Shown: positions 1-27,293 of the stretch, in pieces
Layout of the letters: each line of letters opens with the position of its first letter
Position numbering within the stretch: the first letter of the stretch is position 1
Origin: Sphingobium sp.
GTDB taxonomy: Bacteria; Pseudomonadota; Alphaproteobacteria; Sphingomonadales; Sphingomonadaceae
DNA length: 64,000 nucleotides
Direction: 5' to 3'
Assembly (NCBI GenBank): GCA_035196065.1
Contig: CP136575.1
Coordinates: forward strand, 2,458,769-2,522,768
Notes under the pieces: model-generated
What the model saw: only the letters and a program-made list of their open reading frames with translations
Told to the model about the DNA's origin: nothing
The model's database searches: none
Position numbers and translations under genes: made by a program

Positions 1-187
1 GATCGTCAGCCGCATCGTCAATTGTTGCCACCGGGGTCGTTTCGGCTTTTGCCATCACAGTCTTTGCCGGCAGAGCAGCGGCAATCAGCTGCTCTACCGG
101 AATTTCGGCTTCCTCCTCGGCCGCCACGGGTGTGTGAACCGGGGCGGGCGCGGCGGCGAGGAGAAACAGAGAAAGCAGCTTGCCCAT
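1..187 (-). CDS. Probable beta-propeller 3-phytase, N-terminal part (runs off window)
   Basis: The reading frame starts at ATG 187 and is open to base 1, so only the first 62 codons are present. It begins MGKLLSLFLLAAAPAP, a signal peptide, and then after an Ala/Glu-rich stretch reads ETTPVATIDDAADD. The ETxPVAT..DAADD pattern is what I recall at the start of secreted beta-propeller phytases, which hydrolyse phytate to free phosphate outside the cytoplasm. The start codon overlaps the TBDR stop (TGATG), so the two are translationally coupled, and phytase genes of this type are commonly found beside TonB-dependent receptors. The catalytic propeller lies outside the window, so the call rests on about 14 residues plus context. 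Confidence 0.65.
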   Translation of the reverse strand, partial: MGKLLSLFLLAAAPAPVHTPVAAEEEAEIPVEQLIAAALPAKTVMAKAETTPVATIDDAADD

Positions 188-2991
188 CAGAATGTGAAGC
201 GGACGCCGCCGGTATAACGGCTGCCGAAACGCTCCCATTCGATCGTGTACTGGCCATTACGCTGTGCCGGAATGCCGAGTGCGTTTAGCAGGTTCGAGGG
301 ATCGGAATAACGGCGTCCTGGATTGTTCAGCAGGTTCGAGGCGTCAAAATAGACTTCGAAGCCCTCGAATAGTTCGTAACGGGCAGAAAAATCGAGCTCG
401 TCATCAGCCGCCCAATAGGTATCGCCGGCGTCGGCCAAGTTATCGGCAAAACCGTCTGCCCAGGTCGTGCGCTTTTGATATTGCAGGCGAAGCGATAGGC
501 CATATTTTTCATAATAGCCGCCAACATTGAACACAGCTTCCGAGGTTCCAGGAAGCGGTACCCGACGCGATGGCACAAGCTGCACCCCTAAATTGTCGAG
601 CAGTGCAGGCTTGGTCACCTTAGCATCGTTCCAGGTCGCATTGGCTGTGATACCGAACCCGCCCATCCAGTCGGGCAGACCGAGCTGCTCGGTATAAGGT
701 TCGAGCTGCGCTTGGACGGCGGCTTCGACGCCATAGATACGCCCCTTGCCGCCATTCACGATCCCGCTAAATGCATAGCCAGACCGGTCGATGCCGCCGA
801 AGTTGAGAGCATCTGAGCCAAAACTGCGACGCGAGGTGTAGAGCACCTCCTCCACGCGCTTGTAGAAGGCCCCCAGCATGAAATAGCCCTGCGGCTGGGC
901 ATAATATTCGTAATAAGCGTCGACGCCATAGGCCCGCTCGGGCTTAATAGCAGGATTGCCGCCGGAAATGCGCTGGTTTGCATCGTCCACCACGACATTG
1001 GGGCGCATCTGGTCGTAATCCGCACGTGCTGCGCCGCTGGTGAAGCCAACTCGGAACTTTTGTTCATCGGTCACGTCGAAATTGACATGAAGGCTGGGGA
1101 AGGCCAGCGTGCTGCTGCTCTCGGTTTCGACCGTACCGGTAACGCCCGGGATGGTCGCAAGCGACTGCCCACGGTTGGTGACTTTTTCCACACGGACGCC
1201 GCCGATGAAGCTACCCCCGTCAAACTTGCTATTCGCCATCAAATAGCCGGCAAGGATGCGTTCCCGCACATTGTAATGATTGCCGCTCACCGGGGTCGAA
1301 GGGAAAAGCTCCGCGGCGCGGTCAGTAGCATCGCGCATTGCGTCTTGGCTGAAATATCGGAACGAATAACCAAGCGGGATTTCGCCGCGAAATGGCCTGT
1401 CGAGCGAGAAGGCCGAATAGCTGGTCGGCATGCCGATAGCCGCAAATTGTGCAGCTGTATTGAGCAATATTTCGCGCTCGCGGTTGATCTTCGTTCGCTG
1501 GTCATATTGGAAACCGGCGCGGATGCGGCCTTCACCGCCGAATAGGTCGATGTCTCGGGCTAGTTCGGCCTTGAAGGTATATGCCTTGGTCGGATCAACC
1601 GCGATCAGGCGGCGCAGCGACGACAGAGGTTTGGTAAAGCCGTCGATTGCCGTCACCGGCGTACCCGCCTGAAAGCGAGTCGGGCTGGCAAGCTGGTTGG
1701 TCGTGAACAGGGCGATCCGCTGGAATCGACCATCGGCAAAATCATAAGCGATGGTCGGGCGCAGGTTACGCGTCGATGGGCTGTCCCAACGCGCTTCGCC
1801 GACGACCGAACGGTCATCTTTCGAGACCGTGTAATTGGCCACCCATTTGAAGCCCCAATCGTCGCCGAGACGATGGCTGCCTTCGGCAGTGTTGGTGAAC
1901 ACAGACTGGCGAAAGGCGCGCAGCGTTGAACGTTGGTTGATGTCGATGCCATAGACCGTGCCAAGGAACGCGTTGTTATTACAGACATCTGCATAGGCGC
2001 TGGTCGTCGGGGTGTTGGTTGGCGCAGTCGCACATGCGGCAGTATTGGCGACAAGATCTCCCTGCCGATCGTCCATATCGAAGATATAATTGTCTCGCGC
2101 CTCATCATCGGTGAAGATGGTGTAAAGCGAGCGCAGCGAGATAGTGTTGTCCGCATCCGGGCGGAAATCGACCCGGCCGGAAACCGACCAGTTCTTTCGC
2201 GTCAAGCGATAGAGCTTGTTTTCAGTCTCACGCGCCCAGAAGCGGTTCTCGAACCCGGGGCGGCGATCCTGCGATACCTGTTCCCAGTCGGTTTCGAAAT
2301 TGTCGGTGACCATGTTGCGCTCATAATAGCTACCTGAGAGCAGCACGCCGATTTCACCGACATTGGTGTCGAAGACGTTAGAAAGCGTCAGCGAACCTTC
2401 ATATTCCTCGCGGCTGCCATAATCGACCTTGCCGCCTCCCAGTTTGCCCGACAGGCGGAAACCGTCATAATCGAGCGGCGAGCGGGTGATGATATTGACG
2501 TTGCCCGAGATCGTCTCGCCGGGCATGTCCGGCGTCACGGCCTTCGATACCACAATCTGCGAGGCAAGCGCGCTGGGGATGCTGTCGAAACGTGCATCGC
2601 GGCCTTCGGGGCTGACGATGTTGATGCCGTCAAATGACAGCGTGGTCCAGTAATTGGGCGCCCCGCGCAGCGAAAGATAACGCGCCTGCCCCTGATCGCG
2701 TTCGACCGCCAGGCCGGGAAGACGGCCAGCTGCCTGTGCAATATTCTGGTCCGGAAGGCGGCCGACCGAATCTGACGCAGCGACTGTTACCAGCGAATCC
2801 GAATTCTTCTGGATGACAAGCGCGGCTGCTTCCGATTCGGCAATCGGTCGACTCCCGGTGACAATGATCGCATCCTCATTGGCTGGCAATTCCTCACTGC
2901 CGGGCGCTTGCGCGATGGCCGGAACAGCAACAAATGCTGCGCCACAGAGAAGAAACTGCCGGAACGTTTTAGAAATATTATCGGATGACAT
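187..2991 (-). CDS. TonB-dependent outer-membrane receptor (phytase-linked)
   Basis: 934 aa. A signal peptide (cut near AIAQA) is followed by a short TonB-box-like segment (DAIIVTGSR), a plug domain (SVGRLPDQNIAQAAGRLPGL, YLSLRGAPNYW, then GETISGNVNIITRSPL) and a long beta-barrel ending in the typical aromatic C-terminus GVRFTF. This is the Xanthomonas/Caulobacter-type large TBDR. It imports a bulky ligand across the outer membrane using TonB energy. The ATG is preceded by CAGGGGAT. The next gene, a probable phytase, overlaps its stop by one base, so the ligand is plausibly an inositol phosphate or a phytate breakdown product. A phased half-site array lies about 50 bp upstream. Confidence 0.9.
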   Translation of the reverse strand: MSSDNISKTFRQFLLCGAAFVAVPAIAQAPGSEELPANEDAIIVTGSRPIAESEAAALVIQKNSDSLVTVAASDSVGRLPDQNIAQAAGRLPGLAVERDQGQARYLSLRGAPNYWTTLSFDGINIVSPEGRDARFDSIPSALASQIVVSKAVTPDMPGETISGNVNIITRSPLDYDGFRLSGKLGGGKVDYGSREEYEGSLTLSNVFDTNVGEIGVLLSGSYYERNMVTDNFETDWEQVSQDRRPGFENRFWARETENKLYRLTRKNWSVSGRVDFRPDADNTISLRSLYTIFTDDEARDNYIFDMDDRQGDLVANTAACATAPTNTPTTSAYADVCNNNAFLGTVYGIDINQRSTLRAFRQSVFTNTAEGSHRLGDDWGFKWVANYTVSKDDRSVVGEARWDSPSTRNLRPTIAYDFADGRFQRIALFTTNQLASPTRFQAGTPVTAIDGFTKPLSSLRRLIAVDPTKAYTFKAELARDIDLFGGEGRIRAGFQYDQRTKINREREILLNTAAQFAAIGMPTSYSAFSLDRPFRGEIPLGYSFRYFSQDAMRDATDRAAELFPSTPVSGNHYNVRERILAGYLMANSKFDGGSFIGGVRVEKVTNRGQSLATIPGVTGTVETESSSTLAFPSLHVNFDVTDEQKFRVGFTSGAARADYDQMRPNVVVDDANQRISGGNPAIKPERAYGVDAYYEYYAQPQGYFMLGAFYKRVEEVLYTSRRSFGSDALNFGGIDRSGYAFSGIVNGGKGRIYGVEAAVQAQLEPYTEQLGLPDWMGGFGITANATWNDAKVTKPALLDNLGVQLVPSRRVPLPGTSEAVFNVGGYYEKYGLSLRLQYQKRTTWADGFADNLADAGDTYWAADDELDFSARYELFEGFEVYFDASNLLNNPGRRYSDPSNLLNALGIPAQRNGQYTIEWERFGSRYTGGVRFTF

Positions 2992-3037
2992 TTACAATCC
3001 CCTGATCAAAACTCAAAACAGCAGCTAGCGTTGCCAT

Positions 3038-3099
3038 ATGACTTATTGGGGAATCTTCGGTGACGGATTTGAGTCGGCACTGTGACCAATTAATGTCGC
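3038..3099 (-). promoter_or_regulatory. Weak Pho-box-like phased array upstream of the TBDR
   Basis: Read on the minus strand, successive 7-mers at exact 11-bp steps are GCGACAT, TGGTCAC, CCGACTC, CCGTCAC, GATTCCC and AAGTCAT. CCGTCAC matches the CTGTCAC form of the Pho half-site in 6 of 7 places; TGGTCAC and AAGTCAT match in 5. The intervening units are poor, and no clear -10 follows (TAGCTG after 10 nt). The array lies between the TBDR and the divergent parA-like gene, so it could serve either. It is weaker than the arrays before gspC and the lipoprotein. Confidence 0.35.
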
Positions 3100-3130
3100 C
3101 ACCTGAAGTGACTCAACCAGGAGCTAAAGA

Positions 3131-3868
3131 TTGACAATAATCGCCGTCTTCAGCCCCAAGGGAGGCGTCGGGAAAACCACAATTGCGGTTAATCTTGCCT
3201 GGTGTGCGGCACGCCAAGGCGCTCCAGTGCTCTTATGGGAAATAGATCCCCAACGCGGCGCATCATTTTTGCTTGGTGAAGACGAACTTCCCACAGACCC
3301 CATGCTGCCTATATTTGCCCGAGAACGGCCTGTAAATTCTGCCATAGTTCATACCGAGGTCGACCATCTTGATCTTTTGCCGGCAGACAATAGCCTGCTA
3401 AATCTTGATAGTTTCTTCTCGCGACTAGGCAAAAAGCGCCGACTCGCCCGCATCGCATCAGATTTGCAAGAAGAGTATCAAACGATTTTTCTTGATTGTC
3501 CGCCTGCCATGAATGAGGTCGGCCGGCAGATCTTGCGCGCCGCAGATCTGATTATAGTCCCGCTATCTCCCTCACCGCTTGCGCGAAGGGCGCTCGACGA
3601 AGTTATGCGCCAATTGGCCTTGATGACAAAGTCATCCGCAGTGGTGCTGCCGGTGTTCTCAATGATCGACCGGCGACGATCGCTTCATAAGGAAGCATGC
3701 AAAGCCCAACCTGACTGGCCAGTAATACCTATGTCGAGCGCAATCGAACAAATCGCTGTACAGCGCGCGCCAATAGGAAGCTGTGGCGGCAACTGCCTTG
3801 CGGCTGATGCCTTTGCAAAATTATGGACAGCTATTGATCGCAAGCTCGGCTCATTATCCCGACCATGA
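3131..3868 (+). CDS. ParA/MinD-family ATPase
   Basis: 245 aa. The deviant Walker A motif KGGVGKTT sits at residues 10-17, followed by IDPQ (switch I region) and FLDCPPAM as the Walker B region. It is therefore a ParA/Soj-type cytoplasmic ATPase that would pattern a cargo on the nucleoid or the membrane. The start is TTG, supported by the Shine-Dalgarno CAGGAGC just upstream; there is no in-frame ATG close by. No parB-like partner or parS repeats are visible nearby, so it is an orphan. It is divergent from one TBDR and upstream of another. The cargo is unknown, and a role in the surrounding phosphate genes is not shown. Confidence 0.8.
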   Translation: MTIIAVFSPKGGVGKTTIAVNLAWCAARQGAPVLLWEIDPQRGASFLLGEDELPTDPMLPIFARERPVNSAIVHTEVDHLDLLPADNSLLNLDSFFSRLGKKRRLARIASDLQEEYQTIFLDCPPAMNEVGRQILRAADLIIVPLSPSPLARRALDEVMRQLALMTKSSAVVLPVFSMIDRRRSLHKEACKAQPDWPVIPMSSAIEQIAVQRAPIGSCGGNCLAADAFAKLWTAIDRKLGSLSRP

Positions 3869-3996
3869 GCCTTGCCGAACAACGTAGCGTAATCAAACAT
3901 ACTTAATTGAGACGCCAAACCGTCATCGGTATCACGCATTTTTGAAACAGTGTAATCCTAGTGCGCCCCCTCAGAACAACCAAAGAGGGAATCACA

Positions 3997-6216
3997 ATGC
4001 GCATCACCACTCTCCTGCTGTCAACGGCGGCACTTGTCGCAACGCCTGCATTTGCCCAAGCAACCCTGCCGGGAAACACCGACAGCGCGCCTGCTGATGA
4101 GATTGTCGTCTTCGGCCAAGGCGAAACCCGCCAAGTACAAGAAATCAAATCCGAGGACATCCAGATCCTCGCTCCCGGCACCAGCCCGCTCAAGGCGATT
4201 GAAAAGCTGCCTAGTGTGAACTTCCAGTCAGCCGACCCGTTCGGAACATACGAATGGTCAAGCCGCGTATCGATCCGTGGCTTCAACCAGAACCAATTGG
4301 GCTATACGCTCGACGGTATCCCGCTTGGTGATTCCACCTATGGTAATAATAACGGCCTGCATATCGGCCGTGCTATCACTTCCGAAAACATCGGCGTGAC
4401 TCGCGTTTCACAAGGTGCAGGCTCAATTGGCACTCAGGCGACCAACAATCTCGGCGGCACGCTGGAATTCTTTTCCGCCGATCCCGCAGACGGTTTTGGC
4501 GTTGATGCCAATCTGACCTATGGATCGGAAAACACCCTCCGCGGCTTCACACGCATCAATTTTGGCGAAAGCGACGGTGTTCGCGGTTTCGTTTCGGGCG
4601 TTTATCATAACGCCGACAAATGGAAGGGCGGCGGCGTTCAGAAAAACTGGCAGATCAATGCCAAGGCAATTGTACCGGTCGGTGAGGCAGAGTTCGATGC
4701 CTATTTCGCTTATTCCGACCGGGCCGAACAGGACTATCAGGACCTGTCACTCGAGATGATCCGGCGCCTCGGATATAATCACGACAATTTCTTTCCCGAC
4801 TATGCCCGTGCGATTGCGGCAGCACGTGGTAGCTATGTTGCACCGATCAACAATCTTGACGACAGCTATTATGACGCGTCCGGACTGCGCAAGGATACAC
4901 TCGCGGCTTATGGTTTGATGGCTCCGCTCGGCGAAAGGGTGACCTTCAAGATCAAAACCTATTACCATGACAATACCGGTCAGGGCACTTGGGGCACACC
5001 TTATGTCGCCAGCCCTAACGGGGTACCGATGTCCGCTCGCACTACGGAATATGATATTCAGCGCGGCGGTGTTTTTAGCTCGCTGGAAGCGGAAGTTGGG
5101 GATCATACAATCAGCGTGGGCGGCTGGTATGAACATAATGATTTCACGCAGGCACGGCGTTTCTACGCTTATGAAAGCCTTACAAATGCCGGGCGCGATC
5201 ACACCAAGTTTTTACGCAATCCATTTTTCACCCAGTGGCTGTTCGATTTCAACACCGACACCCTGCAATATTATGTGCAGGACAAGATCGCGTTGGGCGA
5301 CCTGACCATCAACCTCGGCTGGAAGGGTTTCCAGGTCAACAACGAGGCCGACCCGCGCGTGCAGGGTTCGCTTGCCGCGGGCAAGATCAAGTCACAAGAC
5401 TGGTTCCAGCCGCATGTCGGCGTGGCATACAAGCTCAGCAGCAATGCCGAAATGTTCGGCGGCTTCACCCAAGTGACCCGCGCATTTGTATCGTCTGCGA
5501 CCAGCGGTCCCTTTTCGACGACACAGGCGGGTTTCAATGCACTGCGCACGCGTGGTCTTAAGCCAGAAGAATCGGACACGTTTGAACTGGGCGCTCGTTA
5601 TAATGACGCGCGGTTCAACGGCGTGGTCGGAGTTTATTTGGTCAACTTCAGGAACCGATTGCTGGGCGTTCCGACAGGCCCCGGCATCGTCGGCAACCCG
5701 GCAATCCTGCAAAATGTCGGTTCGGTACGCTCGATCGGATTCGAGGCAGCAGGCGATTACCGCCTCGGCAACGGATTTACAGTGTTCGCATCCTACAGCT
5801 TTACCGATGCAAGCTATCGCGACAATGTCATTGTCCCGGGTGCCACGGCAACAGTCATCGCGATCAAGGGCAAGGACGTGGTCGATACACCAAAGCATAT
5901 GCTGCGCGGTGAAATCGCATATGACAGCGATGGCCTTTTCGGTCGCTTGGGCGCCAATTACATGAGCAAACGCTACTTCAACTATCTGAATGATCGCTCG
6001 GTTCCTTCGCGCCTAGTCGTCGATGCCACATTGGGCTATCGCTTTGATGCAGGCTGGCGTCAGCCAATCGAGTTGCAGCTGAATGCCACCAACCTATTCG
6101 ACAAGAAATATGTATCGACGATCGGTTCAAACGGGTTTGGCAATAGCGGTGACAACCAGACGCTGCTCGCAGGGGCTCCGCAGCAGTTCTTTGCGACGGT
6201 CAAGGTCGGATTCTGA
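3997..6216 (+). CDS. TonB-dependent outer-membrane receptor (phosphodiesterase-linked)
   Basis: 739 aa from ATG 3997, chosen because it opens the signal peptide MRITTLLLSTAALVATPAFA and follows AAAGAGGGAATCACA; an in-frame GTG 36 bp upstream has no ribosome site. After EIVVFGQGE (TonB-box region) come the plug (PLKAIEKLPSVNF, VSIRGFNQNQLGYTLDGIPL, NLGGTLEF) and a 22-strand-type barrel (LNATNLFDKKYV, terminal KVGF). The stop overlaps the ATG of the following secreted phosphodiesterase (TGATG), so receptor and enzyme form one unit, probably for taking up a nucleotide or other phosphoester product. Confidence 0.9.
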   Translation: MRITTLLLSTAALVATPAFAQATLPGNTDSAPADEIVVFGQGETRQVQEIKSEDIQILAPGTSPLKAIEKLPSVNFQSADPFGTYEWSSRVSIRGFNQNQLGYTLDGIPLGDSTYGNNNGLHIGRAITSENIGVTRVSQGAGSIGTQATNNLGGTLEFFSADPADGFGVDANLTYGSENTLRGFTRINFGESDGVRGFVSGVYHNADKWKGGGVQKNWQINAKAIVPVGEAEFDAYFAYSDRAEQDYQDLSLEMIRRLGYNHDNFFPDYARAIAAARGSYVAPINNLDDSYYDASGLRKDTLAAYGLMAPLGERVTFKIKTYYHDNTGQGTWGTPYVASPNGVPMSARTTEYDIQRGGVFSSLEAEVGDHTISVGGWYEHNDFTQARRFYAYESLTNAGRDHTKFLRNPFFTQWLFDFNTDTLQYYVQDKIALGDLTINLGWKGFQVNNEADPRVQGSLAAGKIKSQDWFQPHVGVAYKLSSNAEMFGGFTQVTRAFVSSATSGPFSTTQAGFNALRTRGLKPEESDTFELGARYNDARFNGVVGVYLVNFRNRLLGVPTGPGIVGNPAILQNVGSVRSIGFEAAGDYRLGNGFTVFASYSFTDASYRDNVIVPGATATVIAIKGKDVVDTPKHMLRGEIAYDSDGLFGRLGANYMSKRYFNYLNDRSVPSRLVVDATLGYRFDAGWRQPIELQLNATNLFDKKYVSTIGSNGFGNSGDNQTLLAGAPQQFFATVKVGF

Positions 6217-7538
6217 TGCGAATGATGCCCCGCCTTCTGGCTGCTGCCGCCCTGCTCTCCCCTGGGGCAGTAGTGGCCGAGCCTGTGCTGCTGATCTCGA
6301 TTGACGGCCTGCAACCGGCCGATATCCTTGAAGCAGAAAAGCGGGGCATCGACATCCCGAACCTGCAAAGGTTCGTAACGCAAGGCAGCTACGCCAGCGC
6401 CGTTGTTGGCGTGCTGCCGACCGTCACTTATCCCAGCCATGCGACTTTGATTACCGGGGTTTCACCCGCCGAACATGGCATCGTGTCGAACACCGGATTT
6501 GATCCACTTCAGATTAACCAGTCAGGCTGGTATTGGTACGCCAGCGATTTCAAAGTCCCAACTTTATGGGATGCCGCTGCCAAGGCGGGGCTCAAGACCG
6601 CAAATGTACATTGGCCGGTCAGCGTTGGCGCGACATCAATCACGTTCAACTTGCCGCAAATCTGGCGCACCGGGCATGGCGACGACATCAAGCTGATGAA
6701 GGTTCTGGCAACGGCTGGTCTTGTCGATCGTCTCGAAAAATCCGTTGGACAAACCTACGCCCAAGGCATTGACGAAAGCATTGTGGGCGATGAAAATCGG
6801 TCGCTGTTTGCCGAAGCCTTGATCCGCGAGGAAAAGCCGGATTTCATGACCGTTTATTTCACTGCTCTTGATCATGAGCAGCATGAAAAGGGACCAGACA
6901 CCGCTGAAGCGCACCGTGTCCTTAAGCGCATTGATACAATCGTCGGCCGACTGGTCAACGCGCAGATGAAGGCTGATCCCGATGCGGTGATCGCTATCGC
7001 ATCGGACCACGGCTTCGCGGCAACTTCAACCGAGATTAATCTCTATAGGGCTTTCATCGATGCCGGCCTGATCAAGCTCGATTCCGCTGGCAGGATCAAG
7101 AGCTGGCAAGCAGCGCCCTGGAATTCTGGTGGCTCGAGCGCGATCATGCTCGCCAACCCCGATGATGCAGCGGTTGCAGCCCGCGTCCAGGCGCTTCTCG
7201 AGAAACTCAAAAGCGATCCTGCCAACAAGATCGCGAACTTAGCTGTTCCTGAAGATGTCGCGTCCATGGGCGGTAATCCAAGAGCCAGCTTCTATGTCAA
7301 TTTCGAATACGGAGCCTATGCCGGGGGGTTCAAAGGCGTTGATGCACCGCTGGTTGCTCCCTCTGCTTCGAAAGGCATGCACGGCTATTTTCCCCGCGGC
7401 AGCAGAATGCGATCATCATTCATGATTATGGGTAAGGATGTGTCTGCAAAACGCGACCTCGGCGAAATCGACATGCGCATGATAGCGCCAATGCTTGCCG
7501 CGCATCTTGGCATCAGCCTTAGCCATAGAACGCCATAG
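6216..7538 (+). CDS. Secreted nucleotide pyrophosphatase/phosphodiesterase (alkaline phosphatase superfamily)
   Basis: 440 aa with a signal peptide (MRMMPRLLAAAALLSPGAVVA). The NPP-type active site is readable: the ISIDG metal ligand Asp, PTVTYPSHATLITG with the nucleophile Thr, and SPAEHGIVSN, followed by LDHEQHEKGP and ASDHGF supplying the remaining Asp and His zinc ligands. Such enzymes cleave phosphodiester or pyrophosphate bonds of nucleotides and lipids in the periplasm or outside. Translation is coupled to the upstream TBDR. The pairing suggests hydrolysis of an organophosphate followed by import of a product. The natural substrate cannot be told from sequence alone. Confidence 0.88.
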   Translation: MRMMPRLLAAAALLSPGAVVAEPVLLISIDGLQPADILEAEKRGIDIPNLQRFVTQGSYASAVVGVLPTVTYPSHATLITGVSPAEHGIVSNTGFDPLQINQSGWYWYASDFKVPTLWDAAAKAGLKTANVHWPVSVGATSITFNLPQIWRTGHGDDIKLMKVLATAGLVDRLEKSVGQTYAQGIDESIVGDENRSLFAEALIREEKPDFMTVYFTALDHEQHEKGPDTAEAHRVLKRIDTIVGRLVNAQMKADPDAVIAIASDHGFAATSTEINLYRAFIDAGLIKLDSAGRIKSWQAAPWNSGGSSAIMLANPDDAAVAARVQALLEKLKSDPANKIANLAVPEDVASMGGNPRASFYVNFEYGAYAGGFKGVDAPLVAPSASKGMHGYFPRGSRMRSSFMIMGKDVSAKRDLGEIDMRMIAPMLAAHLGISLSHRTP

Positions 7539-7606: not shown

Positions 7607-7640
7607 GAGTCATGAATTTGTCATTTAGAGGCTGCATTTA
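7607..7640 (+). promoter_or_regulatory. Candidate Pho box and -10 before the PhoB-like gene
   Basis: GAGTCAT (7607-7613), spacer GAAT, TTGTCAT (7618-7624): two half-sites of the CTGTCAT type with the canonical 4-bp spacer. CATTTA (7635-7640) follows exactly 10 nt later in the place of a -10, as in PhoB-activated promoters where the Pho box replaces the -35. The coding start at 7668 lies 27 bp downstream. The match is by eye. Confidence 0.55.
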
Positions 7641-8339: not shown

Positions 8340-8353
8340 ATGGTGCAATAAAA

Positions 8354-11193: not shown

Positions 11194-11195
11194 GG

Positions 11196-16417: not shown

Positions 16418-16419
16418 GG

Positions 16420-19165: not shown

Positions 19166-21327
19166 GGTCGGACCTCGCTTTCGGGCAGCGACTGGATTGC
19201 GCCATCCTCGGTTCTGCTGCGATCGGTTGACGCGCCAATTAGGACATCGCCCTGCGAAACCGTCGGAGCCACGGGTGACACCGCACCCATATAGTCCCGA
19301 AAAAGCTGATCGATCGAAGGCTCAAGATCAGGATTACGGTCAAGCTGCAGGTTGCGCACATAATCATAGCGACGCGCGGTATGGACATCGCCGTCAGCAC
19401 GGCTGCGGATGACGGTCGGACGGATAAACACCGTCAAATTGGTCTTGCGCCTTGTCCGGCTCTTCGACTTGAATAACTCGCCCAGCAGCGGAATATCGGA
19501 CAGCAAGGGAATTTTCTCGATGGTCCGGCGTTCATCATCGTTCAGCAGGCCGCCAATTGCAAGGATCTGGCCATCGCCTACCGTCAGGGTCGTTTCGAAT
19601 TCGCGCTTGTTGAAAATCAGGTCCGACGATCGGTTCGACACTGGGCCGGCGACACTCGAAACTTCCTGCCGGACGAAGAGCTTAACTTCGCCCTGCTTGT
19701 TGACCTGCGGCATCACCTCCAGCTTGATACCTACTTCCTTGCGCTGCACGGTCCGAAAGGCATTGTCAAAATTGCCAGAAAGAGCCTCACCAGTCGTGAT
19801 TGGCACATCTTGCCCTACCAGAAACTTGGCCTTCTGGTTGTTCAGCGTCACAATATGCGGCGTTGCGAGGATGTTGGATTCGGTATCATTTTGCACGGCG
19901 TTGATGATCGTTCCGAAAATCGCATCATTGCCGATGTCGAGTGCCAGCCCGCCAAAACCACCGGTTGCGTTAAGTAATGATTGGGCAGCTGCCTGCTGCA
20001 AGCTGTCTCCAAGCGGAGAACGCTGCGTTGTGGTCGTCACATTTCCATTTACCGTGGTTGTGTTGGTGGCCAATTCTTCTGCAGCTACCGCCCCGCCAAT
20101 GGTCAATATGCTTGGAACGGCATTGGAATAGTTGGTCGCCGCAAAGGGGGCATTCTTCCCACCAACAAGGAACTGAACACCAAGGCGCTTTGCCGCATCG
20201 TTGCCAATCTCAACGACGATAGCCTCAACCAGCACCTGTTGCGGACGCGTATCGAGTTGCCGGATAAGTTCGCCCAGCATTTTCTGCACGTCCGCACTCG
20301 CCGCAATGATGATGGCATTGCTGCCTTCATAGCGACTGACAACCACCTTCCCGCGACCGCCGAGCGCCGTTGCCGAACCAGTGGCAGTAATCGGGGCGGC
20401 AACCGACGCAGCTGACGTGGCGCCCGCGCTTGGCGACGCATTTGCAGCCGCCGCAGGCGCAACGCCTGCATCGCTGCTTTCACTTCCCGTTTCACCGATC
20501 AATGAACGGATAGTAGGCAGCAAAGTCTCGGCATTGGCATATTCAAGCGGATAGACGCGGATTTCGGCACCGGATTCTGCCCGCTTGTCCAGTTCGCGTG
20601 CCATAGCAGCAAATCGTGAAACCGAAGTCGGATCGCCGCGCAACGCAATAGCATTACTTGAATCTACCGGAACCACCGTCACCGGCGGACGGCTACCCTC
20701 GCCGCCGACGCCCTGCCCTGCGAGACCCTGCAGCGCGCTGGCAATCTCGCGTGCTCCAGCAAAATCCAGCGTTACGATCTGTGTTGCGGCGCTATCGCGA
20801 TCGATCTGACGAACAAGATCGCGAATGCGGCGAATATTGTCTGCATAATCTGCAATGACCAAGCTGTTTGCATTGCGGTTGGCCGTGATTGAACCTTCCC
20901 GGCTGACCAAGGGCCGCAAGGTTTCGACGGCCGCCGTGGCATCGATCGAACGCAGCCGGAAAACCTCTGTCACAAACTGGCTAGCGGGTGCCGAAGCCGA
21001 TCCAACGCGTGACGGCTGGGTTGCCGCCCCTTCAGCCTGCTGGATGCGATAACCGCCGCCGCGCAAAGGAATGGCGACAAGGCCATTGGCCCGCAGGGTA
21101 GACAAAAATACTTCAAAATATTCAGAACGCGACAGCGATCGATCGGTAACTACCGACACCTTCCCCTGCACCCTGCTATCGACGATGAAGGTTTGACCCG
21201 TAACGCGCGCGGCATCCTGCACAAAGGCGCGAATATCGGCATCTCTTACGTTCAGGACATGCTGGGCCTGCAAGGGGGTTACAGCCAGCAAGGCGACAAG
21301 CGAACAGGCGATCAGATATTTCTTCAT
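19162..21327 (-). CDS. gspD: Type II secretion outer-membrane secretin GspD
   Basis: 721 aa with signal peptide MKKYLIACSLVALLAVTPLQA. The order is N0 (VRDADIRAFVQDAARVTG), three N1-N3 KH-like modules (NSLVIADYADNIRRI, SNAIALRGDPTSV, SNAIIIAASADVQKML), then the secretin barrel (QVLVEAIVVEIGND, LVGQDVPITTGE, VGIKLEVMPQV, IPLLSDIPLLGELF). An Ala/Ser-rich insert (about 285-320) sits in N3. It forms the outer-membrane channel. No pilotin gene (gspS) is visible in the cluster. Confidence 0.94.
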   Translation of the reverse strand: MKKYLIACSLVALLAVTPLQAQHVLNVRDADIRAFVQDAARVTGQTFIVDSRVQGKVSVVTDRSLSRSEYFEVFLSTLRANGLVAIPLRGGGYRIQQAEGAATQPSRVGSASAPASQFVTEVFRLRSIDATAAVETLRPLVSREGSITANRNANSLVIADYADNIRRIRDLVRQIDRDSAATQIVTLDFAGAREIASALQGLAGQGVGGEGSRPPVTVVPVDSSNAIALRGDPTSVSRFAAMARELDKRAESGAEIRVYPLEYANAETLLPTIRSLIGETGSESSDAGVAPAAAANASPSAGATSAASVAAPITATGSATALGGRGKVVVSRYEGSNAIIIAASADVQKMLGELIRQLDTRPQQVLVEAIVVEIGNDAAKRLGVQFLVGGKNAPFAATNYSNAVPSILTIGGAVAAEELATNTTTVNGNVTTTTQRSPLGDSLQQAAAQSLLNATGGFGGLALDIGNDAIFGTIINAVQNDTESNILATPHIVTLNNQKAKFLVGQDVPITTGEALSGNFDNAFRTVQRKEVGIKLEVMPQVNKQGEVKLFVRQEVSSVAGPVSNRSSDLIFNKREFETTLTVGDGQILAIGGLLNDDERRTIEKIPLLSDIPLLGELFKSKSRTRRKTNLTVFIRPTVIRSRADGDVHTARRYDYVRNLQLDRNPDLEPSIDQLFRDYMGAVSPVAPTVSQGDVLIGASTDRSRTEDGAIQSLPESEVRP

Positions 21328-22163
21328 TATGGTTCCAGAATAATGGCGACCGGGACTTTTTGAGCACCCCGCTCAACATCGAGCGTCAGGCGCGCACCGG
21401 GGCGCAATTGGGCTGCAAGTTCGGAAGGCGCGGAGACAGGCCTGCCGTTGATGGCGGTGATAATGTCACCCTTCTGCAATCCGGCAACGCCGAGCATCGT
21501 GCCGTCATCCTTGGCGGCAACGACCAAACCAGTCACCCGGCCTCCTTCGCTCCTCGGGGTGAGGCCGATCGATTGTTGCAGGTTCTGGGAGTTCAGCTTG
21601 GGCGCGCCGTTCTTGGAACCGGCTGGCCCCGATACCGTTGTGACTGGCGGGACCGAAGGCTGCGGGGTTACATTCTCCGCAGGGACTGACTGATCGATGA
21701 AAAGCTTTTCAAGAATGCCGTTATTACTGATCACGACATGGTCGAATGCGACTGCATGCAGCACGGCGCCGGGCATGATTGTTTCGCCGACGGTCCAACT
21801 CGACTGGATGCCATCGGCGCCTGCGATAATGGCCGAGCCGCCCCCTGAAGCCTCATTGGTTCGGATCCCGTAAAGTGTCAGCGGCAGTGACGTAACAATT
21901 TCTGTATTTGTGGACGCAAACTGCGTCCTGAAAAATGGATCAAAACCGCCAAAAAGTGCCGACCTCTCCGCCAGTGGAACGATTTGGGCCTTGGTGGGTC
22001 GCCAATCGCCGATTGGGGCTAACGGCGTGACAACCGTCCAGATCAGGCGGGCGGCCTGAACCGCTGCAACCACAATTGCCAACACTAGAAGGAGGTCGGC
22101 AACCGAAGGTCGCGGGACGCGCCCGATCAACCGACTGACCTTTGTTCGCAATTGATTTTCCAA
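21327..22163 (-). CDS. gspC: Type II secretion protein GspC with PDZ domain
   Basis: 278 aa. It begins at TTG 22163, supported by AGGGAG eight bases upstream. One transmembrane helix (about 22-42) is followed by the homology region (PLTLYGIRTNEASGGGSAII, about 95-115), a Pro/Thr linker and a C-terminal PDZ domain (VTGLVVAAKDDG, LGVAGLQKGDIITAINGRPV). GspC connects platform and secretin and helps choose substrates. As the first T2SS gene it is directly preceded by a phased Pho-box array; its stop overlaps the gspD ATG by one base. Confidence 0.92.
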   Translation of the reverse strand: MENQLRTKVSRLIGRVPRPSVADLLLVLAIVVAAVQAARLIWTVVTPLAPIGDWRPTKAQIVPLAERSALFGGFDPFFRTQFASTNTEIVTSLPLTLYGIRTNEASGGGSAIIAGADGIQSSWTVGETIMPGAVLHAVAFDHVVISNNGILEKLFIDQSVPAENVTPQPSVPPVTTVSGPAGSKNGAPKLNSQNLQQSIGLTPRSEGGRVTGLVVAAKDDGTMLGVAGLQKGDIITAINGRPVSAPSELAAQLRPGARLTLDVERGAQKVPVAIILEP

Positions 22164-22187: not shown

Positions 22188-22243
22188 GATTTATTCCGGT
22201 CCGAAGACAGTTGGATGACTCTTGCGTTTCACTTTAATGACAA
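22188..22243 (-). promoter_or_regulatory. Candidate tandem Pho boxes and -10 upstream of gspC
   Basis: On the minus strand four 7-mers follow each other with 4-bp spacers: TTGTCAT, GTGAAAC, GAGTCAT and CTGTCTT. Three of the four match the CTGTCAT/C half-site in 5-6 of 7 positions; the spacers (TAAA, GCAA, CCAA) suit the AT-rich Pho-box linker. Exactly 10 nt after the last unit stands TAAATC (22188-22193), a fair -10. The gspC TTG start is 24 bp further on. This is the best-formed array in the window and predicts PhoB-type activation of the secretion operon. Confidence 0.65.
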
Positions 22244-22290: not shown

Positions 22291-22295
22291 AAAAA

Positions 22296-25010
22296 TCAAA
22301 ACTCGACATCAATACCTAGGCTGAACGAACGGCCAGGCTTATACCGATTGTAGAAGATGCGATTGTCGCCATTTTGCTGGAATTCCTGATATTTGGTTCC
22401 GGTCAGGTTCCGCGCCTCAAACTTCAGTTCGATTTCCTGATCACCGATCTTGATCCCCTGCCGTGCTACAAAATCCAGTTCGAAACCTGGGCGCTCGACA
22501 ATGTCAGGCTGATTGGATGCGCCGCGGCTGGTAACCCGATCTGACGCATAATTCAAAAGCAGCGTCTGCGCCGACAGGCTGTCGGTATCTTCAAAACCAA
22601 ACTGCAGATTGACCAGATGGTCCGACTGGCCCGTGAGCGGCGCGCCGTCACGGAAGAAATCAGCCGCATTGGTCGAAGACGCCGAAAACACGGCAACAGG
22701 ATCGCCAGGTTTCACGCTGATCTTAGATTTGGAATATGTGTAGTTGGCCACCAATACGAGACGACGCGTCGAGAAGAATCCTTTTTCGGAAAGCGAAGAA
22801 AGATCGAAATATTTCTGAAGCTCGAACTCGGCACCGTAAAGCTGAGCGGTCGGTGCGTTGGCGAAGCTGGTAACGACGCTGTTATCGTTGAAGCTGGAAT
22901 ATGCCTCGATCGGCTTATCAATTTTCTTGAAGAAGCCGGCAGCCGAAAGCCGCTGATCGCGATCGAAATACCACTCGTACCGCGCTTCGGCATTGTACAG
23001 TTGGCTGTCGGTTAAAAGCGGGTTGCCGCGATATTGACGGTTACTGTCCGGATCGAAAAAGGTCTGGAAGATCAGTTCCCGAAACTGCGGGCGCGCGATC
23101 GTCTTAGAACCGCTGACGCGGAATTGCATCTGGTCAGCCAGTTCCCATGTAATCGTTGCAGACGGCAGCCAGTATTTCTTGTTGAGCGCAGTCGAAGCCA
23201 AAACCGCCGTAGGCGTGGTGAAAACCTGCACGGCTTCGACCGATTGCTTAGCGGCCTCATAACGCACACCCAGATTAACGTTGATTTCGGGTGTGATATA
23301 GGCGCGGATCTGGCCATAGCCGGCATTGTTGACCAAGCTGGCATCAAAGATCGGATTGCCTTCATTGGTGTCGATCAAACCAATATTATAGAATTTGATG
23401 ACATCGGGTTGCAGCAGCAAATCCGGACGGAACAAGGCAACTGCGGTCGGAAATGTTGTCGGCGCTGTGAACAGGAAATCACGTTTTTCTGTGCGGCGTG
23501 CCGTATCCGTATAAGCATACCCAATCGTCGCAGTAATATCGGGCGTGACATTATATGTCAGGTCGAGGCCGCCTGCCCAAAGATTTTCGTTCAGGTCAGA
23601 ATAGCTGACTTCGGCGCTGCCCTGCTGACCGTTATTAAGGCGATTTATGAAATACTTGCCATAGGGATCGCTCGCAACATTGCTGCGGAAATATTCGAAG
23701 CTCAATTCGCCCGGAGCTTCGCGCTGCGAATTTGCAAAGGCCAGACGCACGTCGAGTTTGATGTCTGTCGCGGGGCGGAATTCGCCGACAAGTTGCGAAG
23801 TAACGAGTTGACGTTCAAACCAACCAGTATCCTGCTGCTGCAATGTAGCGATCGGCGACAGCGTCTGACGCGTGCCGACGCCCAACCGTGTCTGCTTGAT
23901 TGTGTCGCGGATAAAGACATTGGTCCAGCGCAACTTCTGGTCACCGGCTTCAATGCCGAAACCGACCATTGCGTTGGCAACGATCCGATTGTCTGTAAGA
24001 ACCCGCCGGAAATCGAGTTCCTTTTGCGACAGATCCGCCGATGCTGCTGTCTGCTGGATCGTATCGCGGGTCCGCCATTTGTTGCTGTATCCAGCGGATG
24101 CAAGAATACCGAGCGTTGCATCGTCGCCGATTTCAAAGCTGGTGCCACCCGACAAACTCGCCGAGCCATTGACTGGAAGATGTTTGTTGCGCTGGATCAC
24201 GCCATTGCGTCCGGTCACCAGTTCAGATGCAATCGCCTGGGTGTTGACGTTGCCTTCACTTATCCGAGCGCCGCTGTTCAGGTAACGCTTTAAGGCCGGT
24301 GGGACCGCACGATTATCGTTGGTAAAACCACTCCAGTCGATGGAACTGCCGTAATGGGTATAGCCAAGCTGATTGGTCGTCTCGCTATTACCGCTAACGC
24401 TTCCGCCAACGCTGAGAAAGGTTTCCTCGGGTATTGCCTTGGTTGTCAGGTTGATGACACCGCCGCCAAATTCGCCGGGAAAGTTCGCCGAATAGGATTT
24501 CTGAACAAGCGACGAAGCGATGAGACTGGTGGGAAAAAGGTCAAGCGGCACAACGCGGCGCAGCGGTTCAGGGCTTGGCAAGGGTAAGCCGTTGAGCAGA
24601 GCAAGCGAATAGCGATCGCCAAGGCCGCGCACATAGACATAGCCATTGCCCACAACGCTAAGACCGGTGACGCGGCCGAGCGCGCCAGCAATGTCGCCTT
24701 CGCCTGTGCGGGCAATATCGGCCGCCGACAGGACCGAAACAACTTGGGGTGCAGCCTTTTCGACATTCTGGCTGCGACGACCTTGAACGACAATTTCGCC
24801 TCCGGGGATTGACACGTCGACAGTTTCATCCTGCGCAGCGTCGGCACTAGTCTCGGCGTCCGCAGCAGCTTCCGGCGGTTGCTGGTTTGCATCGTCCTGC
24901 GTGGCCGCGGCACCCGCAGGCTCTTCGGCCGACTGCGCGAATGCGTATGATGGCATTACGAGAGCGGTTGTAACGAGCAGGAGGCTCATTCGCCCAAAAG
25001 GCTTCAGCAT
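22296..25010 (-). CDS. TonB-dependent outer-membrane receptor (lipoprotein/T2SS-linked)
   Basis: 904 aa from ATG 25010, which opens MLKPFGRMSLLLVTTALVMPSYAFA after AAGGGAATTCC; the frame continues upstream without a ribosome site. After an acidic Ala/Gln-rich spacer come GGEIVVQGRRSQ and a plug with YVRGLGDRYSLALLNGLPLP, then EPLRRVVPLDLFPTSLI and FPGEFGGGVINLTTK, followed by the barrel and a terminal LGIDVEF. This RGLGDRY-type receptor is typically seen together with the beta-helix lipoprotein family encoded just upstream. The ligand is unknown; promoter context suggests expression at low phosphate. Confidence 0.9.
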   Translation of the reverse strand: MLKPFGRMSLLLVTTALVMPSYAFAQSAEEPAGAAATQDDANQQPPEAAADAETSADAAQDETVDVSIPGGEIVVQGRRSQNVEKAAPQVVSVLSAADIARTGEGDIAGALGRVTGLSVVGNGYVYVRGLGDRYSLALLNGLPLPSPEPLRRVVPLDLFPTSLIASSLVQKSYSANFPGEFGGGVINLTTKAIPEETFLSVGGSVSGNSETTNQLGYTHYGSSIDWSGFTNDNRAVPPALKRYLNSGARISEGNVNTQAIASELVTGRNGVIQRNKHLPVNGSASLSGGTSFEIGDDATLGILASAGYSNKWRTRDTIQQTAASADLSQKELDFRRVLTDNRIVANAMVGFGIEAGDQKLRWTNVFIRDTIKQTRLGVGTRQTLSPIATLQQQDTGWFERQLVTSQLVGEFRPATDIKLDVRLAFANSQREAPGELSFEYFRSNVASDPYGKYFINRLNNGQQGSAEVSYSDLNENLWAGGLDLTYNVTPDITATIGYAYTDTARRTEKRDFLFTAPTTFPTAVALFRPDLLLQPDVIKFYNIGLIDTNEGNPIFDASLVNNAGYGQIRAYITPEINVNLGVRYEAAKQSVEAVQVFTTPTAVLASTALNKKYWLPSATITWELADQMQFRVSGSKTIARPQFRELIFQTFFDPDSNRQYRGNPLLTDSQLYNAEARYEWYFDRDQRLSAAGFFKKIDKPIEAYSSFNDNSVVTSFANAPTAQLYGAEFELQKYFDLSSLSEKGFFSTRRLVLVANYTYSKSKISVKPGDPVAVFSASSTNAADFFRDGAPLTGQSDHLVNLQFGFEDTDSLSAQTLLLNYASDRVTSRGASNQPDIVERPGFELDFVARQGIKIGDQEIELKFEARNLTGTKYQEFQQNGDNRIFYNRYKPGRSFSLGIDVEF

Positions 25011-25089
25011 TGGAATTCCCTTATCCCCGATTGGAAAAAGGGGTGAGGTGCCGCCACGGCGCACCCCACCCCGATCATCATTAAGCGCT

Positions 25090-26661
25090 TCAGAAGATCG
25101 GAAGCGAGGTGCAGAGGCCGGTGTTGCCGGTGCCGAAATCGGCAGTGCTGCTGTTGCAGGTCCAAGTGCGGTACCAAGTGTCGTTGGCATCGCGGACTGC
25201 ACCGATGTATGTCACGGCATCAAAGAACGACGAGATGCTGGTCGGGTTGAATGCCGGAATTGCTGTTTCAGCTGTGCCGTTGATGAACAGCGAGCTGAAG
25301 CTGGGCGTGAAGGCATCATTGTTGTTGTTCGAACCCGTGCCGAAAATGGCTGCAACCTGCGCTTCGGTCACGCCGTTGCGACCCGAATATTTCGGGTTGC
25401 CGCACTGCATCGCGACCGAGCGGAAGACCGGAGCACCGGCTTCATCGATTGCGGCATCGGCCGTGGCTGATGCGGTCTGCGCCCGGCTGATGGCAAGGCA
25501 GGCCGTGTTCGGAGCCGATACGACACCATTTACCAGCGTATAATCGGTGCCACCACGCAACAGAATAGCAGTCTGGTTGCCGGGAGTTGCGCGCTGGAAG
25601 AAGGCGAAGTTTGAAATCCGCGTATCCTGACGCGGGTTGTTCCCGTCGAGCGCATTGTCTGAGTCCGCCTCAATGATCGAGTCACCCGCAGCGGCGCGCT
25701 GAACGGCGATCACATATTGGAAGTTTGCCTTCAAACCCACGTCGGTATCGATGCTATCGTCCTCAGCACCGACTGAGATGTAGTATTTCATGTTAACGCG
25801 GCCACCGAAGAACTCAGCACCATCGTCCGAACTGTTAAACACCTGAATGTTGTTGAGCACTGTTCCGGTACCCGTACCGCCGGTGGTCAACGCCTGCAAT
25901 TCGGAGTTGCCCGAGAGCACGAAGCCCGAGAAGCGGATCTGGACGAAGCTCATCCGGCCGCTATTGTCTGCGGGGTTAGCACCGCCGTAAAGCGCAGGAT
26001 CAACGGCACCTTCAACCTGGCGTTCGCATGCAGCGGTGCCGGGCGTTGCTGCCGGTGCAGCGCAGTCGGTTACAGGTGCGCGACCAGAAAGAACGACCCC
26101 GCCCCACTGACCGCTGGAGCTATCGGTATTGAGGCCGAGGACATTGTCACGGCTGGTAAAGATGATTGGCAGGGCTGCCGTGCCAACTGCGTTGATGCGG
26201 TTGCCGCGGTTGACGTGCAACCAGGAAACACCCGTGCCGCCAAACACGATCACGCCGGGTTCAATAGAGAGCGTTACGACATTGTTGGTCGATGAAGCGC
26301 CCTGATCCGTGCCGACGTCAACACGGCCGCCGAGACGGTACAGCAGGCCCGCAACGCGCGGGAGCGTGGAGCTAACATTGACGCGCGCAGGCAATGTGCA
26401 GACGCGATAGGTACCGGTCGGACCGGTGATTGTGCCGGAATCAGTCAAACCCTGCGGATCGGCAATCGTCGGGCATCCACCAGCCGGGGTCACCGCTGCG
26501 GGCGGCGGCGGCGGCGGCGGCGGGGGTGGCGGCGGAGCCGGATTGTTGATGGTGATGTTGCCACCTGCACCAGGCGATGCAATGTCATCTGCGCCGCAGC
26601 CAGCGAGCAAACTGGCTGCCGCCGTCACATAAACGATCCCACGCAATTTAGGGTCAATCAT
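25090..26661 (-). CDS. Surface or secreted lipoprotein, beta-helix-like, polyproline linker
   Basis: 523 aa from ATG 26661 (GGAGA upstream). The lipobox SLLAGC puts the lipidated Cys at about residue 22. It is followed by a linker containing 12 consecutive prolines and then a repetitive domain with segments such as VGTAALPIIFTSRD, SGQWGGVVLSGRAP, SDDGAEFFGGRVN and AEDDSIDTDVGLK. The GT..PIIFTS...WGG pattern recurs in large proteins of Bacteroidetes and Caulobacterales often mislabelled multidrug transporter; it looks like a right-handed parallel beta-helix. It is next to a TBDR and a T2SS, so it is a candidate T2SS cargo displayed or released outside. Caulobacter is known to secrete a lipoprotein by T2SS at low phosphate. 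Function unproven. Confidence 0.75.
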   Translation of the reverse strand: MIDPKLRGIVYVTAAASLLAGCGADDIASPGAGGNITINNPAPPPPPPPPPPPPAAVTPAGGCPTIADPQGLTDSGTITGPTGTYRVCTLPARVNVSSTLPRVAGLLYRLGGRVDVGTDQGASSTNNVVTLSIEPGVIVFGGTGVSWLHVNRGNRINAVGTAALPIIFTSRDNVLGLNTDSSSGQWGGVVLSGRAPVTDCAAPAATPGTAACERQVEGAVDPALYGGANPADNSGRMSFVQIRFSGFVLSGNSELQALTTGGTGTGTVLNNIQVFNSSDDGAEFFGGRVNMKYYISVGAEDDSIDTDVGLKANFQYVIAVQRAAAGDSIIEADSDNALDGNNPRQDTRISNFAFFQRATPGNQTAILLRGGTDYTLVNGVVSAPNTACLAISRAQTASATADAAIDEAGAPVFRSVAMQCGNPKYSGRNGVTEAQVAAIFGTGSNNNNDAFTPSFSSLFINGTAETAIPAFNPTSISSFFDAVTYIGAVRDANDTWYRTWTCNSSTADFGTGNTGLCTSLPIF

Positions 26662-26790
26662 TCTGAATCTCCGCAATAAACCTTTGCCCTGATCGGGCAG
26701 CGAGACATGCGGGCGCGAATCTGAAAAGGGCCCCACCCGTCGTCGAGTAGAGGCCCTATGCTATGCGTGTGACTCTATTGTTTGGATTTG

Positions 26791-26819
26791 ATGACAATAC
26801 TGTGAATGTTATGTGTCAT
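26791..26819 (-). promoter_or_regulatory. Candidate triple Pho-box array upstream of the lipoprotein gene
   Basis: Reading the minus strand: ATGACAC, spacer ATAA, CATTCAC, spacer AGTA, TTGTCAT. These are three half-sites at exact 11-bp steps, matching CTGTCAC/T in 5, 5 and 6 of 7 positions. CAATAG lies 10 nt downstream as a weak -10, and the start codon is 130 bp further on, leaving a long leader. The spacing is what makes this notable; the individual matches are moderate. Confidence 0.55.
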
Positions 26820-26889
26820 TTTTATTTCTGTATCCACAGGGATACATCCACGTCGCAAATGCGCGCGTGAAATTTAGATTAAAATATTT

Positions 26890-27246
26890 TTAATTTAGTG
26901 ATTTGAGCGCCAATAATGCAGCCTTACGCGAGCCCATAACCGAACCATCGGCCAGCACAAGATCCACCTCCTCGGTGGATTTCGCTGCAGCTTCAAACGC
27001 TTTGCGCGCACTCGCCTTGTCGCCAAGCCGCGCATGCGCCCGACCGATGTTAATCAAACGGGCCGGATCGTTGCGCGCAGTCTGATCGGCGAGCAATTGG
27101 CGCAAGGCACCTTCATTGTCGTTCGACATTAGCGCCGCATAGCCTGGTGTCGTGCGATCCGCATTCACCTCAGCCAAGGGAGCCTGCGCGACCGCCGCAG
27201 AGGCAACAAACATGGCGGCCATCCCACCAAAGAGAATCACTCTCAT
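26890..27246 (-). CDS. Small secreted TPR-like protein
   Basis: 118 aa with signal peptide MRVILFGGMAAMFVASAAVAQ and a single tetratricopeptide-like unit: ARLINIGRAHARLGDKASAR, then KAFEAAAKS. Periplasmic. An unusually strong ribosome site (AAGGAGATATACG) precedes ATG 27246. Upstream, CTGTAAT-GATA-GTGTAAC (27276-27293 on the minus strand) has 7-4-7 spacing like a Pho box, but no -10 follows at the right place. It lies upstream of the lipoprotein gene on the same strand. Function unknown; such proteins often hold partner proteins in the envelope. Confidence 0.7.
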   Translation of the reverse strand: MRVILFGGMAAMFVASAAVAQAPLAEVNADRTTPGYAALMSNDNEGALRQLLADQTARNDPARLINIGRAHARLGDKASARKAFEAAAKSTEEVDLVLADGSVMGSRKAALLALKSLN

Positions 27247-27293
27247 CGTATATCTCCTTCTCCGTTCTCCTGATTGTTACACTATCATTACAG

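Follow-up and report, generated by a model that had tools for sequence, protein, structure and literature searches.

Is a type II secretion system (T2SS) whose genes lie among phosphate-scavenging genes itself part of the phosphate response, or is it only a neighbour? This question is raised by a locus of Sphingobium sp. that we analysed within a stretch of 64,000 nucleotides, in the following called the window (G000:C1:2458769-2522768, contig CP136575.1; the genome, G000, is one contig of 3.02 Mb). From left to right the locus comprises ppk, ppx, a phytase gene lying mostly beyond the window, a gene for a TonB-dependent receptor (TBDR), a ParA-like gene, a TBDR–phosphodiesterase pair, a regulator gene and plcP–agt, followed on the opposite strand by gspO to gspC, a further TBDR gene, the gene of an ElpS-like lipoprotein and a small gene with similarity to tetratricopeptide repeat (TPR) proteins, and the whole set of linked phosphate units spans about 27 kb. 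Taking this established gene content together with the promoter sequences, we consider the locus very likely to be a PhoB-controlled phosphate-scavenging island. Overall it is a real Pho island, ordinary in kind, with an unusual regulator.

The promoters were scored with a Pho-box matrix of 18 bp whose training set consisted solely of the 250 bp ahead of pstS from 30 genomes of the order (30 of 163 with pstS, window genome included). A PhoB box has two TGTCAY-like half-sites with an 11-bp period; training yielded TTGTCATAAAACTGTCAC, and 29 training promoters out of 30 reached a score of at least 14. A crude Pho-box consensus proved too unspecific, with 66 sites in 320 kb of sampled genome, and was dropped in favour of the trained matrix, since consensus matches alone would prove little. 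As controls served the promoters of 184 open reading frames (ORFs) from sixteen 20-kb stretches, showing a median score of -0.9, a 95th percentile of 6.4, a 99th percentile of 10.5 and a maximum of 13.0. In the window seven of the twelve tested starts scored at least 6.4, with 0.6 expected, which corresponds to a binomial P of about 5e-7 if the starts, which were picked by the analyst, are taken as independent. All seven are leader genes, and the starts inside runs (phosphodiesterase, gspD, the TBDR next to elpS, gspO) as well as the ParA-like gene stayed at background (-2.5 to -0.2). Three of them lie individually above every control, namely gspC with the box TTGTCATTAAAGTGAAAC between TBDR and gspC (22226-22243, minus strand, score 20.8), the regulator gene (7607-7624, plus strand, 16.3, a score reached by 0 of the 184 controls) and the TPR gene with CTGTAATGATAGTGTAAC (27276-27293, minus strand, 16.1). 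The elpS promoter carries two Pho-box-like sites (26780-26830, minus strand; 10.4 at 26813-26830 and 10.0 at 26780-26797) and ranks near the 98-99th percentile. Near the 96-97th percentile follow the weak Pho-box-like sites of plcP–agt (8343-8360, plus strand, 8.9), of the phytase–TBDR unit (3060-3077, minus strand, 7.9; 2.7% of the 184 controls are as high) and of the TBDR–phosphodiesterase unit (3909-3926, plus strand, 7.2).

To see whether these boxes recur, we scored the best matches of each search in relatives, covering 34 of the 117 genomes with an ElpS homologue (among 196 genomes), 28 of 44 regulator homologues (29 loci were taken, one being too near a contig end), 29 of 103 plcP homologues and 40 gspC promoters; for the latter, 42 of the 62 other GspD genomes were taken, two without usable upstream DNA, and G179, which is broken, as well as 19 genomes from other families with low scores were omitted. 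A box of at least 10 was found before elpS in 32 of 34 genomes, before the regulator gene in 27 of 28 (54-88 bp ahead of the inferred start), before gspC in 27 of 40 relatives including other genera (33 of 40 at 6.4 or more) and before plcP in 16 of 29. For the TPR gene three of five relatives reached at least 10 (23.4 in two genomes of the same genus) and the other two gave 5.5 and -6.1; the three orthologues of the TBDR–phosphodiesterase unit gave 15.2 in two same-genus genomes and 2.4 in G059. Column-shuffled matrices applied to the same sequences produced on average 0.27-0.97 rows of at least 10, and the worst of 200 shuffles reached 2 rows for the regulator and 3 for plcP. Among first-pass control ORFs in relatives, taken outside the mapped island genes, 23 of 283 scored at least 10; because a lytic transglycosylase gene that recurs beside elpS accounts for many of these, the ORFs were divided anew by distance, giving 20 of 155 at up to 2.5 kb from an island gene and 3 of 128 farther away. 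Because the box recurs directly before gspC, the T2SS operon appears from its sequence to have a Pho promoter of its own and not to depend solely on read-through from elpS–TBDR. The initial annotation had described two receptor–enzyme pairs joined by TGATG, plcP–agt, the series from lipoprotein and TBDR to gspC–O and 7-4-7 repeats before several units, all as one linked regulon. We read both pairs in the same way and found matches for all listed genes, the repeats exceed chance when scored with the trained matrix, and the single regulon is well supported by the sequence, not least by the gspC promoter in other genera.

In kind, this regulon is already known from Caulobacter. The 2010 study of C. 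crescentus describes the synteny elpS–TBDR–gsp, naming Sphingomonas alaskensis as well, and reports that ElpS is made under phosphate starvation and released in a T2SS-dependent manner (PMC2996285). The order elpS (cc0170), cc0171 TBDR, gspC-N is that of lipoprotein gene, TBDR gene and gspC on a single strand in the window. The PhoB regulon of Caulobacter published in 2024 comprises T2SS, TBDRs, phytase, nucleotide pyrophosphatase and phospholipase C (PMC11208175), the same kinds of genes as found here. Unlike in Caulobacter, phytase, phosphodiesterase, plcP–agt and gsp are physically linked in the window within about 27 kb, and gspO lies on the strand of the operon instead of the opposite one. 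In the window an atypical PhoB-derived regulator is embedded in addition. The Hxc system of Pseudomonas (PMC2225411) is likewise a T2SS that neighbours the gene of a phosphate-starvation substrate carrying a Pho box, a likeness by description; in the window the apparatus operon itself is Pho-boxed, whereas hxcR of P. fluorescens SBW25 is described as not induced by phosphate limitation. Similarly, the predicted function of plcP–agt follows the lipid remodelling pair PlcP–Agt (PMC4796936), in which the same type of phosphoesterase is combined with a glycosyltransferase of family GT4, but the window glycosyltransferase is far under the cut-off of the NCBIfam GlcN-PG synthase (70 vs 480 bits). 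The recurrent box before gspC would thus extend PhoB control of the type II secretion machine from Caulobacter to the Sphingomonadales. The linkage of all units, the gspC box in Sphingomonadales and the atypical regulator were not found in our searches of an open-licence collection that covers few subscription journals, and the same holds for any report on the regulator family.

The more unusual feature compared to T2SS control is the regulator (7668-8339, plus strand), a degenerate PhoB paralogue. As the initial annotation had it, the protein is PhoB-like in that profiles, alignment, tree and model place it as OmpR-type and PhoB-derived, but it is not PhoB, scoring 123.5 bits against TIGR02154 with its cut-off of 296.2. 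The true PhoB of the genome reaches 330.3 bits (G000:C1:1454560-1455237), and genuine phoR, pstS, pstC, phoU and phoB are grouped about 1 Mb from the island. In the tree the regulator family forms one clade with 100/100 support and a long stem beside PhoB, a placement that is provisional given the long branches. Among named genomes, Sphingomonadaceae and Erythrobacter-like bacteria hold the best relatives of the window regulator. Phosphorylation of a receiver involves an acidic pair, an Asp, a Thr or Ser and a Lys. In an alignment of 30 family sequences, numbered after PhoB of the window genome, the phospho-accepting Asp53 is kept in all 30, Thr83 and Lys105 are lost in all 30, and the acidic pair is incomplete: residue 9 is never acidic, and residue 10 is so in a minority, provided that the alignment is moved by one position. 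Within the recognition helix (RTVDVWIGRLR vs RTVDVHIRRLR in PhoB) His198 is replaced by Trp in all 30 sequences and Arg200 by Gly in 26 and by Ser in 3, one keeping Arg. The model (mean pLDDT 85) shows a receiver short of one helix and an effector domain superposing on the E. coli PhoB effector–DNA structure 1gxp with a TMt of 0.88-0.89. Among the 50 fold matches listed from the PDB are 2hqr (HP1043) as well as 5u8k and 5vfa, both RitR; these orphan OmpR-type regulators and PhoB have the OmpR/PhoB effector domain and the receiver fold in common, and the window regulator resembles the orphans in a receiver without the set of phosphorylation residues. Judged by sequence and model, it is an atypical OmpR-type regulator, with traits of its own in being PhoB-derived in the tree, itself Pho-boxed and tied to elpS–TBDR. 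No partner kinase gene lies beside it in the window, where its neighbours are the phosphodiesterase gene and plcP.

After exclusion of matches below 115 bits, which were counted as PhoB or other OmpR proteins, and removal of G118, whose match is its true PhoB, 44 genomes carry the regulator; all are in one family, and 69 of its 113 genomes are without it at the threshold used. Regulator and elpS lie within 17 kb of each other in 38 of the 40 genomes with both, always on opposite strands and convergent, and in 27 of the 38 the gap is 2.86-3.07 kb, which is the length of a TBDR gene. Indeed, each of the 16 relatives mapped shows a TBDR gene in this gap, and of 14 further loci (L272-L285) nine have a TBDR beside the regulator, eight of these also elpS. 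Regulator, TBDR and elpS are direct neighbours in Pontixanthobacter rizhaonensis, Pelagerythrobacter rhizovicinus and Qipengyuania nanhaisediminis. The pair is unlinked in G131, where the two genes are on different contigs, and in G169, where both genes are near the start of different contigs. In G131 a distant family member with the helix KTVNVWVGRLR is found away from elpS (L147:9469-10137).

The regulator and the T2SS tend to exclude each other. For this comparison we took 83 family genomes with ElpS (the first 82 full-length rows, with the broken rows of G132 and G148 added and G002, of another family, dropped; double-length ElpS proteins of other families were left out) and defined T2SS absence as no GspD at E <= 1e-90. 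Four genomes have both, 36 the regulator only, 30 the T2SS only and 13 neither (P = 2.7e-8, ignoring phylogeny), and in the same order the genus majorities are 0/13/12/4 (P = 6e-5, likewise ignoring phylogeny). On this majority basis the genus of the window is classed as lacking the regulator, and the window genome is among the few with both, its gsp operon lying between regulator and TBDR–elpS. GspK as second marker agrees, except for a weak partial match in G030, a weak match in G053 and none listed for G155. In most elpS promoters shown from regulator genomes, TGCAAY half-sites are arranged as two 7-4-7 pairs. A search for the pattern TGCAAYNNNNNYGNMAYRNTGTCAY across 196 whole genomes gave a single site in each of 29 genomes, always 185-313 bp ahead of the elpS match and on its strand, and the pattern in reversed form, used as control, was absent from all 196. 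At zero mismatches the array is present in 28 of the 40 genomes with regulator and elpS, against 1 of the 43 family elpS genomes without regulator (G183, the sole array with no regulator detected), and 12 of the 40, window genome included, are without it. As the pattern was written from some of these elpS promoters, its presence there is not independent and its absence elsewhere is the informative part.

From these sequences we infer PhoB binding, expression, enzyme activities, secretion and the mode of action of the regulator as follows. Under phosphate scarcity PhoR would phosphorylate PhoB, both encoded outside the island, and PhoB would bind the 7-4-7 boxes before both TBDR–enzyme pairs, plcP–agt, elpS–TBDR, the TPR gene, the regulator gene and gspC. 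Phytase and phosphodiesterase could then release phosphate or nucleosides near the cell surface, the TBDRs would import organic-phosphate ligands and PlcP–Agt would swap phospholipids for glycolipids. With the T2SS raised simultaneously, ElpS or hydrolases that free phosphate might exit the cell as in Caulobacter. The regulator is probably a PhoB-derived, phosphorylation-independent second-tier factor that is raised by PhoB. Going further, we tentatively propose, at somewhat less than an even chance, a second Pho tier in the Sphingomonadales. In this tier an unreported PhoB-derived family with a phosphorylation-dead receiver would be induced by PhoB and, with its H198W and mostly R200G helix, would co-activate elpS–TBDR through TGCAAY half-sites beside the PhoB box in a feed-forward loop. 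Its carriers would mainly be genomes that have lost the T2SS, often with a Pho-boxed lytic transglycosylase as well, and ElpS–TBDR would work there without T2SS release. Under this proposal the window genome would be a mixed case, its gsp operon sitting between regulator and TBDR–elpS. An orphan PhoB paralogue that is probably not phosphorylated in the usual way, under a Pho box and adjoining one likely target, makes it possible to follow how response regulators, once duplicated, lose phosphorylation and shift DNA specificity, and opens the question why a surface lipoprotein–TBDR phosphate pair manages with or without a secretion system.

How do these readings compare with their rivals? The T2SS might be constitutive and general, merely standing beside Pho genes, with the boxes driving only elpS and the scavenging genes. 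Several points weigh against phosphate control of the whole island. Caulobacter gspE and gspL are transcribed in rich medium too, with a 1.7-fold rise in poor medium, mGFP-GspL protein is similar in both media and cc0171 is reported as constitutive (PMC2996285), and in P. fluorescens hxcR is not induced by phosphate limitation though the Hxc substrate is (PMC2225411). In 8 of the 34 family genomes with both genes, over 12 kb separate gspD from elpS or the two are on different contigs, the boxes of plcP and the first two TBDRs are weak here (7-9) and could not stand alone, 7 of 40 gspC promoters stay below 6.4 and 13 of 29 plcP promoters below 10, and the worst shuffled matrix still reached 5 of 40 gspC promoters and 19 of 45 elpS rows, the latter containing duplicates of one genome (34 when counted per genome). 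Moreover, the ElpS-like identity rests on position, lipobox, size and the naming of S. alaskensis in the 2010 paper. Against a merely neighbouring T2SS speak the dedicated strong box between TBDR and gspC, with a score of at least 10 in 27 of the 40 relatives examined, and the T2SS within the Caulobacter PhoB regulon (PMC11208175), and we regard this explanation as improbable. What the gspC box does bear out is a secretion machine with a Pho promoter; to call it a phosphate-stress organelle, as had been suggested, is overstated in view of the rich-medium expression of gspE and gspL and the constitutive cc0171, and because 36 of the 40 family genomes with elpS and regulator show no GspD.

For the regulator, loss of function is one alternative explanation, as its receiver has lost key residues, its branch is long and most genomes of the family (69 of 113 at the threshold used) do without it. 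A decaying PhoB duplicate would hardly be expected to keep open frames with Trp at H198 and Asp53 in 30 of 30 sequences and Gly at R200 in 26, a Pho box in 27 of 28 promoters examined and the linkage to elpS in 38 of 40 genomes, so that we find this idea highly improbable. A functional regulator might instead bind the ordinary Pho box and act as competitor or anti-activator of PhoB. The superposition of its effector model on 1gxp, the largely conserved recognition helix and a window elpS promoter without TGCAAY arrays fit such a role; H198W in all sequences and the bias of the arrays towards regulator genomes (28/40 vs 1/43) argue for half-sites of its own and make the competitor rather unlikely. 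It is quite possible, if still short of even, that the T2SS–regulator anticorrelation and the TGCAAY array reflect clade history and carry no functional meaning, since all carriers are in one family and the tests are uncorrected for phylogeny. The genus-majority table, the genera g1 and g15 that hold genomes with both, and the array as a single exact site of its kind per genome point the other way. Returning to the proposed second tier, support for its feed-forward part is limited to the relatives, because the pattern was drawn from these promoters and the array is missing from the window genome.

In the window the phytase gene is present with its 5' end (1-187, minus strand); on the frame L004:14874-16007, left of the window, it matches PF02333 with 2.7e-87 and 293.6 bits. 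It is joined by TGATG to its TBDR (187-2991, minus strand, TIGR01782 with 494 bits). Phosphate genes reach further left, where ppk1 and ppx adjoin the phytase gene, ppx being convergent with it (L004:11296-14877). The ParA-like ATPase gene, assigned by its domains (3131-3868, plus strand, TTG start), separates the two TBDR units and so breaks the island; with a box score of -0.2 it is apparently outside the regulon although sitting inside the island. On the plus strand follow the second TBDR (TBDRn, 3997-6216, PF00593/PF07715, with the ATG at 3997 taken as start and a longer GTG frame from 3961) and, TGATG-coupled to it, the type I phosphodiesterase/nucleotide pyrophosphatase gene (NPP, 6216-7538, PF01663 8.2e-47). 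Beyond the regulator, the plcP-type metallophosphoesterase, a predicted membrane-lipid phospholipase C (8452-9330, plus strand, Metallophos PF00149 2.5e-10), and the agt-type GT4 glycosyltransferase (9327-10403, plus strand, PF13439 1.6e-21) overlap and form one transcription unit by layout. The minus-strand operon gspC-D-E-F-G-H-I-J-K-L-M-N-O (10414-22163) includes gspC at 21327-22163, gspD at 19162-21327, gspE at 17633-19165, gspM at 11924-12406, recognised as PF04612, and gspO at 10414-11193; all components of the core C-N and the prepilin peptidase O were matched by Pfam or NCBIfam. Also on the minus strand are the TBDR paired with the lipoprotein (TBDRe, approximately 22296-25013, PF00593/PF07715), the ElpS-like outer-membrane lipoprotein with the lipobox LLAGC (25090-26661) and the small TPR-like protein with a signal-peptide-like start (26890-27246), which has a weak PF07719 match and adjoins elpS in several relatives. 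The ElpS model (mean pLDDT 68) gave weak beta-helix-like fold matches, none with E <= 0.001, and no PDB sequence match. In other families of the order (f2, f5, f6, f7, f8) ElpS homologues are frames of about 840-1040 amino acids with two ElpS-like copies.

The window gsp operon is the only canonical T2SS seen among three secretins of the genome, in which GspK has a single match. One of the other two is a GspD-like protein that falls short of the family cut-off and belongs to a distinct cluster, which has an ATPase of its own; the remaining one is of pilus type with a BON domain. A second secretin/GspE/GspF-like cluster under T2SS family cut-offs was seen at L006:8751-17851.

In relatives, 26 of the 34 family genomes that possess gspD as well as elpS have the two genes on the same strand and no more than 12 kb apart, and in 24 of these elpS is the upstream gene. 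The island is composed differently in some of them: true phoB, agt, plcP, regulator, TBDR and elpS are found within 18 kb in G146 and G185, and phoB, pstS, elpS, TBDR and regulator within 13 kb in G114. A small lytic transglycosylase gene stands beside elpS in several relatives (e.g. L156:15063-15716), with PF01464 in three of four frames scanned, the fourth being a wrong frame. Of 43 sources searched, 24 have it at 0.76-1.09 kb from elpS, with box scores of 11.4-19.3 in 24 of 24; the window, L004 and L005 gave no match for it. The 16 of these 24 carriers that have G handles are absent from the GspD list, and the carriers G012, G129, G183 and G191 are without regulator.

The elpS end of the island borders on a primase/AAA protein (PriCT_2, AAA_25) and a Mu/IS-type transposase (28780-33122). 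In the same-genus G083 the block TBDRn–NPP–plcP–agt is on the elpS side and not on the gspO side, and TBDRn–NPP–plcP(–agt) is likewise on the elpS side of gsp–TBDR–elpS in G131 and G059, agt having not been looked at in G131 and G059 showing a 4.5-kb gap ahead of plcP. As same-genus genomes have this block where primase and transposase sit in the window, the comparison suggests a rearrangement with a mobile element.

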